Shown piece after piece: positions 7,290 to 13,244 of a DNA stretch of 64,000 nucleotides. A model generated the notes under the pieces. That model saw only the letters and a list, made by a program, of their open reading frames with translations, was not told the origin of the DNA and ran no database searches. Where the stretch lies: contig JAUPUU010000176.1 of NCBI GenBank assembly GCA_030917395.1, positions 1 to 64,000 of the forward strand. Direction: 5' to 3'. Positions within the stretch are counted from its first letter, which is position 1. The number at the start of each line of letters is the position of its first letter. The stretch is from Cyanobacteriota bacterium erpe_2018_sw_21hr_WHONDRS-SW48-000092_B_bin.40 (GTDB taxonomy: Bacteria; Cyanobacteriota; Vampirovibrionia; Obscuribacterales; Obscuribacteraceae). Made by a program: the position numbers and the translations under genes.

Positions 7290-8552
7290 TTAATCCCAGC
7301 TGAGCGCACCACCGGTTTGGTAGTCGATAACGCGAGTCTCAAAGAAATTCTTCTCTTTCTTCAAGTCGATCATCTCGCTCATCCATGGGAATGGATTCTT
7401 AGCGCCGACATATTGCTCAGGCAAACCAATTTGCTTGAGGCGACGGTTCGCAACGTAGCGTAGATACTCAGAGAACATCTGCGCATTGAGGCCAAGCACG
7501 CCGCGTGGCATTGTATCCACAGCGTAAGCGTACTCAAGCTCGACACCCTCTTTAACTAGATCGATGATTTCTTGTTGGAATTCAGGTGTCCAGAGGTGTG
7601 GGCTTTCGAGCTTGATCGAATTGATCATATCGACGCCAAAGTTGAGGTGCATTGATTCGTCGCGCATGATGTACTGGAATTGCTCAGAAGCACCAGTCAT
7701 TTTGTTCTGGCGGCCGAAGCTCAACATCTGTACGAAACCAACATAGAAGAACAAGCCTTCCATAATGACATAGTAGCCAATCAAGTTACGCAAGAAGCGA
7801 CGATCGGTTTCAACAGTACCAGTCTTGAAGTTAGGGTCAGCCAACTCTTGAGTGAACTGCAACTGGAAGACGTCTTTGGCGTAGATTGACGGAATCTCGC
7901 GGTACATGTTGAAGATTTCGCCTTCATCAAGGGCAAGACTTTCCACTACATACTGGTAGGCATGGGTGTGAACAGCTTCTTCAAAAGCCTGACGCAGTAG
8001 ATACTGACGGCACTCAGGATTAGTGATATGGCGGTAAATTGCCAACACTAAATTGTTTGCTACCAGTGAATCAGCGGTAGAGAAGAAGCCCAGGTTGCGT
8101 TTGATAATGGTGCGCTCATCAGCACTAAGACCATTAGGATCTTTCCAGAGAGCAATGTCGCGGCTCATGCTGATTTCTTGCGGCATCCAGTGATTGGCGC
8201 AACCATCCAAATATTTCTGCCAGGCCCATTCGTACTTAAATGGCACAAGCTGATTAAGGTCGGCGCGGCAATTGATGATGCGCTTTTCGTCAACAGTAAT
8301 GCGCTTGTCAGTGATTTCAATTTGCTCAAAACCAGTGGCACCAGCGCCAACTGCGACAGTAGGAGAAGCGGCTGGCACAACCGAAACGCTGGATACCATT
8401 TGAGCTACTGGTGTAGTTACTGGTTGAGCGACACTAGCAGCAGCCACTTGGCCCGGTGCGAAATTCAAAGTGGCAGTCTCGCCCCCGGATTCCAAAGTTG
8501 AAGCTGAAGTAGAAGCTGTATTTGAAACTGGAACGTCATCAAAACTAAGCAT
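7290..8552 (-). CDS. nrdB: Class I ribonucleoside-diphosphate reductase beta subunit
   Basis: 420 aa; [38 protein letters not shown] with metal ligands and radical Tyr at ExxHxxxY spacing. Confidence 0.95.
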
Positions 8553-8640: not shown

Positions 8641-11538
8641 CTATTGGCAGGCCTCACATTCGGGATCGATAATCGAACAAACTTTTGGCACCGGAGCGGA
8701 AGCCGTTCCTTTTACTTGTACTGATTTGGCACCAGAGCTGGTGACTGCATTAAGAACACCAATTTGAGTTGTGGATTTTTCTGGAGCAGTAGCAGCGGCA
8801 GTTCTTAAATAATAGGTAGTTTTTAGACCTTTGGTCCAAGCCATTTTATAAATTTCGTCCATTTTCTTACCGCTTGGCTCAGCCATGTAGAGGTTCAAGC
8901 TTTGAGCTTGATCAATCCATTTTTGGCGGCGGGAAGCTGCTTCAATTAGCCAACGGGTATCAACTTCAAAAGCAGTAGCATAGAGTTCTTTGATATGGTC
9001 AGGAATACGGTCGATAGGCTGTAGAGTGCCATCGAAGTACTTAAGGTCATGCACCATAACTTCATCCCAGAGGCCCAACTGTTTGAGATCATCAACGAGG
9101 TATGTATTTACCACGGTGAATTCGCCAGAGAGATTCGACTTAACGTAGAGATTCTGGAAAGTTGGTTCAATCGACTGACTGACGCCAACGATATTAGAGA
9201 TGGTGGCAGTAGGAGCGATTGCCAAGCAGTTGCTATTGCGCATACCGTATTTGGCAACACTCTCACGAACGAATGTCCAGTCAAGTCTGCCACCACGTTC
9301 GAGATCAAGAATTTGACCACCAGCTGCTAGACGAGCTTCATCAACAAGAGCGAGAGAATCTTGAGGGAAGATGCCTTTGTCCCAGAGAGAGCCTTTGTAT
9401 GAATGGTAGGTTCCACGCTCGCGGGCTAATTCGCTAGAAGCGAAGATAGCATTCATGCTCACAGCTTCTTGGCAGTAATCGGCAAAGTCGACAGCTTGCT
9501 GACTGGCATAAGGAATACGCAACTTCAATAGAGCGTCTTGGAAGCCCATTACGCCTAGACCAACTGGGCGGTGACGGACGTTAGATTGTCTTGCCTTAGG
9601 CACGCTGTAATAGTTGATATCAACTACGTTATCAAGCATGCGCATGGCGGTCTTGCAAGTCTTGCTCAACTTCTCTAGGTTGAGGGCACCATCAACGATG
9701 TGAGCAACCAGGTTGATTGAACCAAGATTGCAAACGGCTGTTTCAGTCTCAGAAGTATTGAGAGTGATTTCAGTACATAGGTTAGAGCTATGCACAACGC
9801 CAACGTGTTGCTGAGGGCTTCTCAAGTTGCATGGATCTTTGAAAGTCATCCATGGATGGCCAGTTTCGAAGAGCATGGTCAACATCTTTCTCCAGAGAGA
9901 AACAGCTGGAATGCGCTTGAAGAGTTTGATTTGTCCGTTATCGGCCATTTGCTCATAACGCTCGTAAGCGTTCTTGAATGGAATACCGAACAAGTTGTGC
10001 AAGTCAGGAGTTTCTTCAGGGCTAAATAGTGTCCATTGGCCATTCTCCAAAACCCGTTGCATGAACAAGTCAGGAATCCAGTTAGCACTATTCATGTCAT
10101 GGGTGCGGCGGCGATCGTCGCCAGTATTCTTGCGCAACTCCAAGAACTCTTCGATATCCATGTGCCAAGTTTCTAGGTAGCAGCAAACTGCACCTTTGCG
10201 CTTACCGCCCTGGTTAACAGCAACAGCGGTGTCATTAACGACTTTAAGGAAAGGCACTACACCTTGGCTCTTACCGTTCGTTCCAGCAATGTGTGAACCG
10301 AGAGCGCGCACTGGTGTCCAGTCATTGCCCAGACCGCCGCTGAACTTAGAAAGCAGAGCGTTCTCTTTCATGGCATCGTAAATAGAGCCAAGATCGTCAG
10401 AAACAGTGGTGAGGAAGCAAGAAGAAAGCTGGGGGCGATGAGTACCGGAATTGAAAAGTGTTGGTGTGGAAGAAACGAAGTCGAAGCTAGAAAGCAAGTT
10501 ATAGAATTCGATTGCTTTGTTCTCGCGCTCAATTTCGTTTAGAGCCAAGCCCATAGCGACTCGCATCCAGAAAGCTTGAGGCATTTCAAAACGCTGACCA
10601 TCAGTATGGAGCAAGTAACGATCGTAGAGGGTCTGCAAACCAAGGTATTGGAATTTGAAATCGCGATCGCCATCAAGAGCAGCACCGATTTTTTCTAGAT
10701 CAAATGTTGCCAAACGAGGATCAAGCAAACCAGCGTGGATGCCCTTAGCAACATAATCGCTAAAGTAAGTGGCATAGCGCTCTTTCATGGCACTCTGACT
10801 GAGAGCTTCACCAAGAATCTCTAAGCGCATTTGGTGCAAGAGCAAGTGCGAAGTGACATAGCTATAGGCTGGGTCGGTTTCGATTAGTGCACGTGAACTC
10901 ATGATCGCCGAGCGAATTACTTCGCCTTCTGGCACGCCTTCGTAGAGGCTCTCAAGAGTAGACTCGATAATTTTGCGATAGTCCACAACATCGCCATGAG
11001 CAACGCAAGCTTCTTTGACAATGACATCAAGGGCGAGATCAGAGAAGGCAACAGTGCTGCCATCTATGCGAGTAACTGTTGGCCCCTTGCTGTCAGCTTG
11101 TACGGTGGCTGGCAAAGCAGCTTCGCGCTCAGCACGCTCTTTCGAACGAGCTTCACGATAGAGAACATAGCCACGAGCAACTTCTTGCTCACCAGCTCTC
11201 ATCAAGGCCAATTCAACTTGGTCTTGGACGTGTTCAATATGTAGCACTCCGCCTTCAGGCAGACGACGCATCAAAGTTTCAGTAACCTGACCTGTCAATT
11301 TGTTAACCAGATCTCTTACTTTCGAACTGTCGGAACCATGGGTGCCTTCAACAGCGAGAAAAGCCTTGGTGAGCGCAACTGCAATTTTAGAAGGATTGAA
11401 CTCAACCACATTGCCGTTGCGTCTTAGCACTTTGTAGAGCACAAATTGGCTGACGAGAGTTTCGCTCAAACCAAAGTTGGCACCAGCGCTAGCTGAGGGC
11501 TCAGCATGTGTGGGGGCAGCTGAAAGGACTTGGCTCAT
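8641..11538 (-). CDS. nrdA: Class I ribonucleoside-diphosphate reductase alpha subunit
   Basis: 965 aa; two ATP-cone-like N-terminal domains, FNSGTHRPQLSSCFL, NLCTEITL, MRNSNCLAIAPTATISNI, C-terminal ECEACQ redox cysteines. Confidence 0.96.
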   Translation of the reverse strand: MSQVLSAAPTHAEPSASAGANFGLSETLVSQFVLYKVLRRNGNVVEFNPSKIAVALTKAFLAVEGTHGSDSSKVRDLVNKLTGQVTETLMRRLPEGGVLHIEHVQDQVELALMRAGEQEVARGYVLYREARSKERAEREAALPATVQADSKGPTVTRIDGSTVAFSDLALDVIVKEACVAHGDVVDYRKIIESTLESLYEGVPEGEVIRSAIMSSRALIETDPAYSYVTSHLLLHQMRLEILGEALSQSAMKERYATYFSDYVAKGIHAGLLDPRLATFDLEKIGAALDGDRDFKFQYLGLQTLYDRYLLHTDGQRFEMPQAFWMRVAMGLALNEIERENKAIEFYNLLSSFDFVSSTPTLFNSGTHRPQLSSCFLTTVSDDLGSIYDAMKENALLSKFSGGLGNDWTPVRALGSHIAGTNGKSQGVVPFLKVVNDTAVAVNQGGKRKGAVCCYLETWHMDIEEFLELRKNTGDDRRRTHDMNSANWIPDLFMQRVLENGQWTLFSPEETPDLHNLFGIPFKNAYERYEQMADNGQIKLFKRIPAVSLWRKMLTMLFETGHPWMTFKDPCNLRSPQQHVGVVHSSNLCTEITLNTSETETAVCNLGSINLVAHIVDGALNLEKLSKTCKTAMRMLDNVVDINYYSVPKARQSNVRHRPVGLGVMGFQDALLKLRIPYASQQAVDFADYCQEAVSMNAIFASSELARERGTYHSYKGSLWDKGIFPQDSLALVDEARLAAGGQILDLERGGRLDWTFVRESVAKYGMRNSNCLAIAPTATISNIVGVSQSIEPTFQNLYVKSNLSGEFTVVNTYLVDDLKQLGLWDEVMVHDLKYFDGTLQPIDRIPDHIKELYATAFEVDTRWLIEAASRRQKWIDQAQSLNLYMAEPSGKKMDEIYKMAWTKGLKTTYYLRTAAATAPEKSTTQIGVLNAVTSSGAKSVQVKGTASAPVPKVCSIIDPECEACQ

Positions 11539-11589: not shown

Positions 11590-11800
11590 AAATAAGACCC
11601 TCTTAGTGGTTTTTCAAACCAAGAGGGTCGGCAATGCAAAGCAGCTATTTGCTTGCAAGACGTACCCTCTTACTCCACGAAGATGGTGTCCGAAGTGCCC
11701 TGGTGGGTAGCCTGACTCAGGATTTTCATCCAATTACAGTTGCGGGACAGCGATGGAATTTCACCATTCTTCCCCCACCAGATCAGTTTTACTGGTCTTC
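11590..11800 (-). ncRNA. Cobalamin (AdoCbl) riboswitch in the nrdA leader
   Basis: Minus strand GGTGAAATTCCATCGCTGTCCCGCAACTGTAATTGGATGAAAATCCTGAGTCAGGCTACCCACC matches the conserved cobalamin riboswitch core and B12 box; lies upstream of nrdA. Confidence 0.93.
11596..11629 (-). terminator. Rho-independent terminator of the nrdA leader (riboswitch expression platform)
   Basis: Minus strand GACCCTCTT-GGTTTGAAAAACCACT-AAGAGGGTC followed by TTATTTT. Confidence 0.85.
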
Positions 11801-11824
11801 ACGTCAGTCAGTTAAACCAATACA

Positions 11825-12022
11825 AAACAAAAACTGGGCGATGAAAATCGCCCCTCTCAGGTCAGCAAGTTACCTTGTTGTGCCTAGGGACTATTGGATT
11901 TGTATTTGTTCAACCGACTTAAGAGGAGCCTCGAACTGATCCCTGTTTTTTCAGGGCACTCAGTTAAATTTTGCGATAAATCTCCTGTAGTCGATTCGCA
12001 TTGACAGCAAGGTAACACTTGC
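11825..12022 (-). ncRNA. Candidate structured RNA with own intrinsic terminator, directly upstream of the cobalamin riboswitch
   Basis: 13-bp closing helix (12008-12016 with 11869-11877; 12019-12022 with 11865-11868), hairpins 11972-12000 and 11934-11965, terminator 11836-11853 followed by AGTTTTTGTTTT on the minus strand. Confidence 0.5.
11836..11853 (-). terminator. Intrinsic terminator upstream of the cobalamin riboswitch
   Basis: Minus GGGCGAT-TTTC-ATCGCCC then AGTTTTTGTTTTG. Confidence 0.7.
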
Positions 12023-12365
12023 AAAAGATCAATACAAGCCTACCCCAAAACGATTCTCGAAACGGCTGAAATCGGTGTACCCATAACGCTTGGAGCATTT
12101 GCAACAAAGTATGACCAGTTTTCTACATCCACCACTTGTGACACCACTGCGTATATGCTTTTGCGCATAGCAAATATGCACTAGTAGTGCGACGTGATTC
12201 ACAACACCCAATTAAATTTGCGCGGAGCAGATAACTCTTCGATAATTTCCGATAAATCGGACGTTTTCTGGGTATTCTCTCATCTAAATTGAGTATTGAT
12301 TCACGCAAGATTCACAGCAAATATAGAGTCGCGATCAAGCGCATATAGACTTGATTAAGCCCATC

Positions 12366-13244
12366 TCAAAGTGGCCCGCCATGAGCCTTTGCGAGATCAA
12401 CTATTGAAGGTAGAATACTGCCGCTCTTACCCGAGAGAAAAACATCGACGTGATCAGACAATGGCGTGCGCTCTATATTGATTTCAACTAATTTGGCACC
12501 ATTGCCCTCGGCAACATAGGGCAGCGAGATAGCTGGTTGAACCAAAGCAGAAGTGCCAATCACAATAAACAGATCGCATTGTCTTGCCGCTTGCATAGAG
12601 GCTTCTAGCGTAGCTGGATCTAACTGCTCACCAAACCAAACAACATTGGGGCGTAGTTTAGAAGAGCAGTGCGGGGGATTGCACAGAGGCGGCTCCAGCA
12701 AATGGTAGGGCACTTCTGAAGACTGATGCCCATGGTCAAAGCAACGAAAGGTAATGATGTTGCCGTGCAGTTCTAAGATGTTTTGAGAACCGGCCCGGTG
12801 ATGCAGACGATCAACGTTTTGGGTAATCAAAGTGAATGGTCGCGGGGCAATTAGTTTTTCAATCTGAGCCAAGGCCAGGTGCCCGGCATTGGGCTCAACC
12901 CCTTCTACAAGACAGCGACGCCAGTCATACCACTGCCAGACCAGCTCAGGGTGCTTACGAAAGCCTTGGGGGCTTGCCAATTCGGTCGGGTCATACTTTT
13001 CCCAAAGGGGCGTAGGCTCGTCTTTTTCGGCAGCTGAGCGGGCAGCATCGGCACCGCGACGAAAAGTAGGCACGCCACTTTCGGCTGAAATGCCAGCACC
13101 GGTCAAAACGGTTATGTTGCGGCAATTAGTTATCCAATCAGCGACTATTTGAAGACTGGCGCTCTGGAAATTAGTACCTGATTGCATAATTAGCGGCCTA
13201 TCTCTTTTTTTTTCACTTTTGCAATGGTTTCCATTGAAACCCAT
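12366..13244 (-). CDS. Sirtuin, NAD-dependent protein deacylase (start may be internal, ...MQSGTNFQ)
   Basis: VLTGAGISAESGVPTFR, LITQNVDRLHHRAGSQNILELHGN, VVWFGEQLD, VIGTSALVQPA. Confidence 0.95.
   Translation of the reverse strand: MGFNGNHCKSEKKRDRPLIMQSGTNFQSASLQIVADWITNCRNITVLTGAGISAESGVPTFRRGADAARSAAEKDEPTPLWEKYDPTELASPQGFRKHPELVWQWYDWRRCLVEGVEPNAGHLALAQIEKLIAPRPFTLITQNVDRLHHRAGSQNILELHGNIITFRCFDHGHQSSEVPYHLLEPPLCNPPHCSSKLRPNVVWFGEQLDPATLEASMQAARQCDLFIVIGTSALVQPAISLPYVAEGNGAKLVEINIERTPLSDHVDVFLSGKSGSILPSIVDLAKAHGGPL

Follow-up and report, generated by a model that had tools for sequence, protein, structure and literature searches.

Structured cis-regulatory leaders that stand in tandem with a riboswitch are a known class of RNA. 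Upstream of metE in Bacillus clausii, SAM-I and AdoCbl riboswitches are arranged in tandem (reviewed in PMC9481103), and in Streptomyces coelicolor an AdoCbl riboswitch precedes the reductase genes nrdABS, for which AdoCbl repression has been reported (cited in PMC4991794). A leader of another kind is the STAB-SD of Bacillus thuringiensis cry3A, where binding of the 30S subunit has been proposed to protect the long leader (PMC4113751).

The nrdAB locus described here resembles the metE tandem in that a structured RNA immediately precedes an AdoCbl riboswitch in what is predicted to be a single leader, with possible two-input control. In contrast to metE, the upstream element matches no known aptamer, stands before a reductase gene and contributes a strand to a helix (P6) that ends next to the second aptamer. 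A text search of the same review gave no mention of ribonucleotide reductase. With S. coelicolor nrdABS the locus shares an AdoCbl switch ahead of a class I reductase, and in both organisms a B12-dependent class II enzyme, here a predicted one, is encoded as well; no upstream structured element is described there in the available text of PMC4991794. Like STAB-SD, it carries a sequence resembling a Shine-Dalgarno site close to the predicted 5' end of its long leader with no start codon after it, but here this AGGAG lies in a hairpin loop or is paired depending on the predicted state, within a larger covarying structure.

Locus and promoter

The window, i.e. the whole stretch of DNA analyzed (64,000 nt), originates from an Obscuribacter-like MAG of the non-photosynthetic Cyanobacteriota. 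On its minus strand a sirtuin-family deacylase gene is followed, after a gap of about 830 nt containing a single AdoCbl riboswitch, by nrdA and nrdB (Table 1). A second large reductase of the same genome aligns to B12-dependent class II models with a score below the TIGR02504 cut-off. With this class II-like enzyme present, it would make sense for AdoCbl to repress nrdAB, as in Streptomyces nrdABS.

Table 1. Features of the nrdAB leader region and its flanking genes in the window
Feature	Position	Strand	Basis or remark
nrdB, class I ribonucleotide reductase small subunit	7290..8552	-	
nrdA, class I ribonucleotide reductase large subunit	8641..11538	-	
Terminator-like hairpin of B12 switch, then T-rich run	11596..11629	-	predicted fold
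AdoCbl/cobalamin riboswitch aptamer	11685..11797	-	RF00174, 49.7 bits vs cut-off 31.5
P6 3' strand GUUUAACUGACU, directly upstream of AdoCbl aptamer	11806..11817	-	duplex test and covariation
Terminator-like hairpin GGGCGAU-UUUC-AUCGCCC with U-rich tail, genus g1 only	11823..11853	-	hairpin proper 11836-11853
Possible antiterminator strand CUGACCUGAGAGGGGC, pairs with 11914-11929	11850..11865	-	prefix folding
Segments of the first-pass annotation, GCUCCUCUUA and UGAGAGGGGC	11920-11929 and 11850-11859	-	found at these positions
Shared strand AGUCGGUUGAAC: P2 3' strand (11912-11919) and P6 5' strand	11908..11919	-	covariation
P3 3' strand CUCCU, pairs with AGGAG 11982-11986	11924..11928	-	81% of cells paired, no double changes
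P4/P5 hairpin AACUGA-CCCUG...CAGGG-UCAGUU	11934..11965	-	covariation
Hairpin A, UGCGA...UCGCA, with Shine-Dalgarno-like AGGAG (11982-11986) in loop	11972..12000	-	stem kept, sequences differ in other genera
P2 5' strand AAUCGACU	11989..11996	-	covariation with 11912-11919
Conserved nrdA promoter: -35 TTGTAT (12032-12037), 17-nt spacer, extended -10 TGTTACCTT (12009-12017)	12009..12037	-	pattern test
Sirtuin-family deacylase gene upstream of nrdA	12369..13244	-	

Side-by-side reading of nrdA upstream regions revealed a promoter pattern (TTGnnn-N17-TGnTAnnTT) that is present in 24 of the 40 regions from the family, compared with 1.3 on average and at most 5 in first-order Markov sequences. This promoter sits at the 5' edge of the element, upstream of the element and the AdoCbl switch alike, and the position of its -10 places the predicted transcription start near 12002. 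A consensus scan missed it because its hexamers match the E. coli consensus poorly. The first-pass annotation had noted no obvious promoter between the element and the aptamer; the consensus scan agrees. We infer that one transcript runs through the element and the B12 switch.

Closer examination of the promoter also bears on the 9+4 bp helix that was initially thought to close the element. This helix is complete in only two loci (L001 and L002), its 3' partner is not conserved either, and its 5' strand (12008-12022) overlaps the extended -10 element. Since that strand lies on the conserved promoter, the closing helix is probably not transcribed and would be absent from the RNA. Hairpin P1 (GCAAG/CUUGC), with 98% of cells paired, likewise lies on the promoter and was for this reason omitted from the covariation counts.

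Additional observations were made in the surroundings of the promoter and of nrdA. About 100 nt upstream of the -35, a GGTRTCAC motif (GTGGTGTCACAAGTGGTGG, 12129-12147, minus strand) recurs in most of the element-bearing genomes and is a possible transcription-factor site. A coding end similar to that of the sirtuin-family gene was noticed by eye before nrdA in several other genera (L106, L110, L111, L115, L116 and L119). The best NrdA relatives outside the family, with about 62-66% identity in a genome scan, are mostly betaproteobacterial, which hints at horizontal transfer of nrdA.

The core element and its homologues

All segments listed in the first-pass annotation were recovered at their positions. 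The element segment folds better than its dinucleotide shuffles (z = -3.0), and its core extends from about 12002 to 11905 on the minus strand. Homologues were collected by a DNA search of 60 relatives, a family-wide NrdA protein search and a covariance model (R1). The core was present in 10 genomes of the Obscuribacter family representing four genera, and its position was before nrdA in each; of the other two genomes of genus g1, one has no detected nrdA and the other has an nrdA cut by the contig end. With every pair compared, identity amounted to 61-99% in the core versus 51-89% upstream of the promoter and 44-84% downstream of the core, and the core diverges fast between genera. A weaker R1 match (21 bits) occupies the equivalent place in genome G018. 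No convincing match to R1 was obtained outside the family in 240 genomes of the class and 339 of the phylum, which were searched with stricter filters that lose weak matches. An R1 match in genome G158, antisense within a TPR-like gene, was taken as chance.

Only two matches in the window reached an Rfam 15 gathering score, the AdoCbl switch and a tRNA; the element had none, and a permissive scan yielded chance-level matches only for it. 6S RNA (RF00013) resembles the element in its rod-like fold and comparable length in single-sequence prediction, and differs from it in that the element is tied to nrdA and has a rod that competes with another helix; RF00013 had no match in the genome of origin (assembly 88.6% complete), while the controls were found in 5 genomes. 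A NiCo match in locus L115 was below the cut-off and on the opposite strand. Our literature search found nothing on Obscuribacter riboswitches or on 6S RNA of Melainabacteria. The nrdJ RNA motif, a published structured RNA, was compared with the element through Rfam only, and within this searched scope both the RNA family and the shared-strand arrangement of P2 and P6 beside an AdoCbl aptamer appear to be new. This would be a new RNA family in the non-photosynthetic Cyanobacteriota.

Two mutually exclusive helices

The check for covariation among homologous nrdA leaders gave a strong signal in the helices of a rod (P2-P5) across the 10 genomes. With the promoter hairpin excluded, 86.9% of the cells were paired and 9 of 24 pairs had changed on both sides (shuffled mean 3.5, 0/500 as high), in an alignment that was fitted to the rod structure and leans these counts towards it. 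Shifting the partner by 1-3 columns abolishes both the pairing and the double changes. Both hairpins proposed from the single sequence gained support, as the stem of hairpin A (UGCGA/UCGCA) is kept with different sequences elsewhere and the AACUGA hairpin (P4/P5) covaries. The partial break of P2 in the g5 genomes (a C-A pair) suggests that the rod is kept less strictly than the alternative helix P6, and the rod may lack function in some genomes.

Folding of growing RNA prefixes indicated that the 3' strand of P2 is able to pair further downstream, forming P6. In the duplex test the partner energy reached p values of 0.003-0.03 in 7 of the 9 loci with a B12 switch, and in the remaining two the best partner of the P2 3' strand was located at the same place; none of six control strands had an unusually good partner as consistently. 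No P6 was detected by this test in L096/L009, which belong to a genome without a B12 switch. Across seven genomes, 89% of the P6 cells were paired and 7 of 12 pairs exhibited double changes (one base of the L101 internal loop being omitted from the count). When the partners were reshuffled among genomes, 0 of 2000 arrangements paired as well and 52 of 2000 equaled the number of double changes. Columns 120 and 122 covary in P6 even though they lie outside P2. P6 was identified post hoc in these same data, and the sequences represent only a few clades. Since P6 and P2 have the P2 3' strand in common they are mutually exclusive. In each of the seven leaders tested, the P6 state is predicted to have the lowest energy, by a margin of 2-6 kcal/mol, with the rod not far above it. 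P2 versus P6 offers precisely defined helices for mutation.

Taken as a comparison of sequences, these data establish a conserved promoter, two exclusive covarying helices, a constant link to reductase genes and no match to a known family. The initial description of the segment as an uncatalogued structured RNA is borne out: it covaries, shares a predicted transcript with the B12 riboswitch and is consistently associated with genes for ribonucleotide reductase. We consider it probable that it represents an unnamed two-state cis-regulatory leader of the nrdAB mRNA with a conserved promoter, in tandem with the AdoCbl riboswitch. The conserved promoter, the constant place before nrdA and the position of P6 beside the aptamer argue for such a cis leader over a stand-alone ncRNA. 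A small RNA that has a promoter and a terminator of its own and stands before nrdA by chance would agree with the promoter and terminator-like hairpin flanking the element in g1; we nevertheless regard it as a distinctly poor candidate, given that the terminator is absent in other genera, the scan shows no second promoter before the aptamer, the element always adjoins nrdA, P6 reaches the aptamer and 6S RNA was not found.

Terminator-like hairpin and possible antiterminator in genus g1

The terminator assigned to the element in the first-pass annotation stood in part: a GC-rich, terminator-like hairpin with a T-run is present in genus g1, but the T-run is missing in the other genera and the terminator is not a general part of the element. 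The proposed antiterminator pairing is perfect in L001 and L002, while by eye one mismatch each was visible in L003 and L004. A conformer combining hairpin A with the antiterminator lies no more than 3.4 kcal/mol above the best fold, and for the 165-nt prefix it is the most stable fold. The U-rich tail of the g1 terminator also constitutes the 3' strand of a P6 extension and, in the folding model, may have another reason to exist in that role. The pairing of the tail within the P6 extension, together with the restriction of the terminator to one genus, renders attenuation there uncertain.

The terminator-like hairpin and possible antiterminator of g1, along with the mutually exclusive covarying helices P2 and P6 and the position before both a reductase and an AdoCbl switch, would be in line with a true tandem riboswitch, in which a small molecule (a deoxynucleotide, metal or redox cofactor) selects the rod or P6 in a two-input gate; tandem gates with AdoCbl exist (PMC9481103). 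We judge this to be unlikely, as there is no recognized aptamer, a separate conserved core for a ligand could not be delineated, the distribution is narrow, the core diverges fast between genera, and the element is without a conserved expression platform of its own. A related and somewhat less likely proposal is a new class of reductase sensor, in which rod/P6 switching would respond to a signal such as dNTP supply or free ribosomes and be mechanically coupled through P6 to the AdoCbl aptamer. If true, such a sensor reading with P6 coupling would amount to an integrated two-input gate on DNA-precursor synthesis.

Proposed function of the leader

In the two-state cis-regulatory leader that we favor, the element, as the 5' part of the nrdAB mRNA leader, would be transcribed from the conserved promoter (12009-12037) in one RNA with the AdoCbl riboswitch. 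The core would adopt the P2/P3/P4/P5 rod in one state, with AGGAG buried, while in the other the P2 3' strand would pair beside the B12 aptamer as P6. Formation of P6 would release the P2 5' strand for hairpin A and thereby place AGGAG in a loop, and in genus g1 an additional choice between the terminator-like hairpin and the antiterminator is possible. The B12 switch would shut off the class I reductase when AdoCbl can support class II, by analogy to Streptomyces, and the most likely role of the upstream element is an additional layer of control through attenuation, mRNA stability or access of ribosomes. We likewise infer that switching between the two states regulates expression.

The AGGAG sequence is relevant to two further explanations. 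About 16-20 nt separate it from the predicted transcription start, it is not followed by a start codon at any constant spacing, and in many genera it is found in a hairpin loop. These features, along with the STAB-SD precedent (PMC4113751), would suit a 5' mRNA stabilizer or ribosome stand-by site where AGGAG binds 30S and protects the long leader while the hairpins present or hide it. AGGAG is, however, absent from the leaders of genus g23, and the long P6 helix adjoining the aptamer would be left unexplained, so that this explanation too seems unlikely to us. GGA motifs occur both in the AGGAG of the hairpin loop and in ACAGGGAU and could also be read as CsrA binding sites, which is highly improbable considering that CsrA (PF02599) was found neither in the genome of origin nor in 48 of 50 family genomes, in searches whose controls worked. 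A leader peptide was rejected, as no start codon was seen by eye at a fixed spacing downstream of AGGAG and L007/L008 lack the ATG at 11999-12001.

Leaders in other genera and before other reductase genes

In other genera, the leader that separates the same promoter from the AdoCbl switch is shorter and consists of hairpin A, a hairpin ending near CAGGGAU and a hairpin adjoining the aptamer, in that order. AGGAG is often in the loop of hairpin A, and the stem sequences differ. These leaders have a mean folding z of -2.5 (24 of 27 below -1) and, judged by eye, would be homologous to the core. The same kind of leader with an AdoCbl switch was detected once by pattern search before nrdD, the class III reductase gene, in genome G072; none was visible by eye in front of two other nrdD genes. 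The occurrence of a conserved two-state RNA joined to the B12 switch ahead of nrdAB, and of a related leader ahead of nrdD, suggests that a second signal contributes to the choice between reductase classes.

In the L009 leader (genome G014), an NrdR-box-like sequence (TGCACTATATATGGTGT) is located between the element and nrdA in a hairpin located where the B12 switch would otherwise be, and NrdR-like boxes are also present upstream of nrdD in L166 and L167. Three loci without a B12 switch (L132, L136 and L120; genera g7 and g12) share a different long conserved nrdA leader (CAAATCTGATGAAGNNGAGC...GCCCRGAA...GCGATTCTTCCAGAT), which is possibly another structured RNA.
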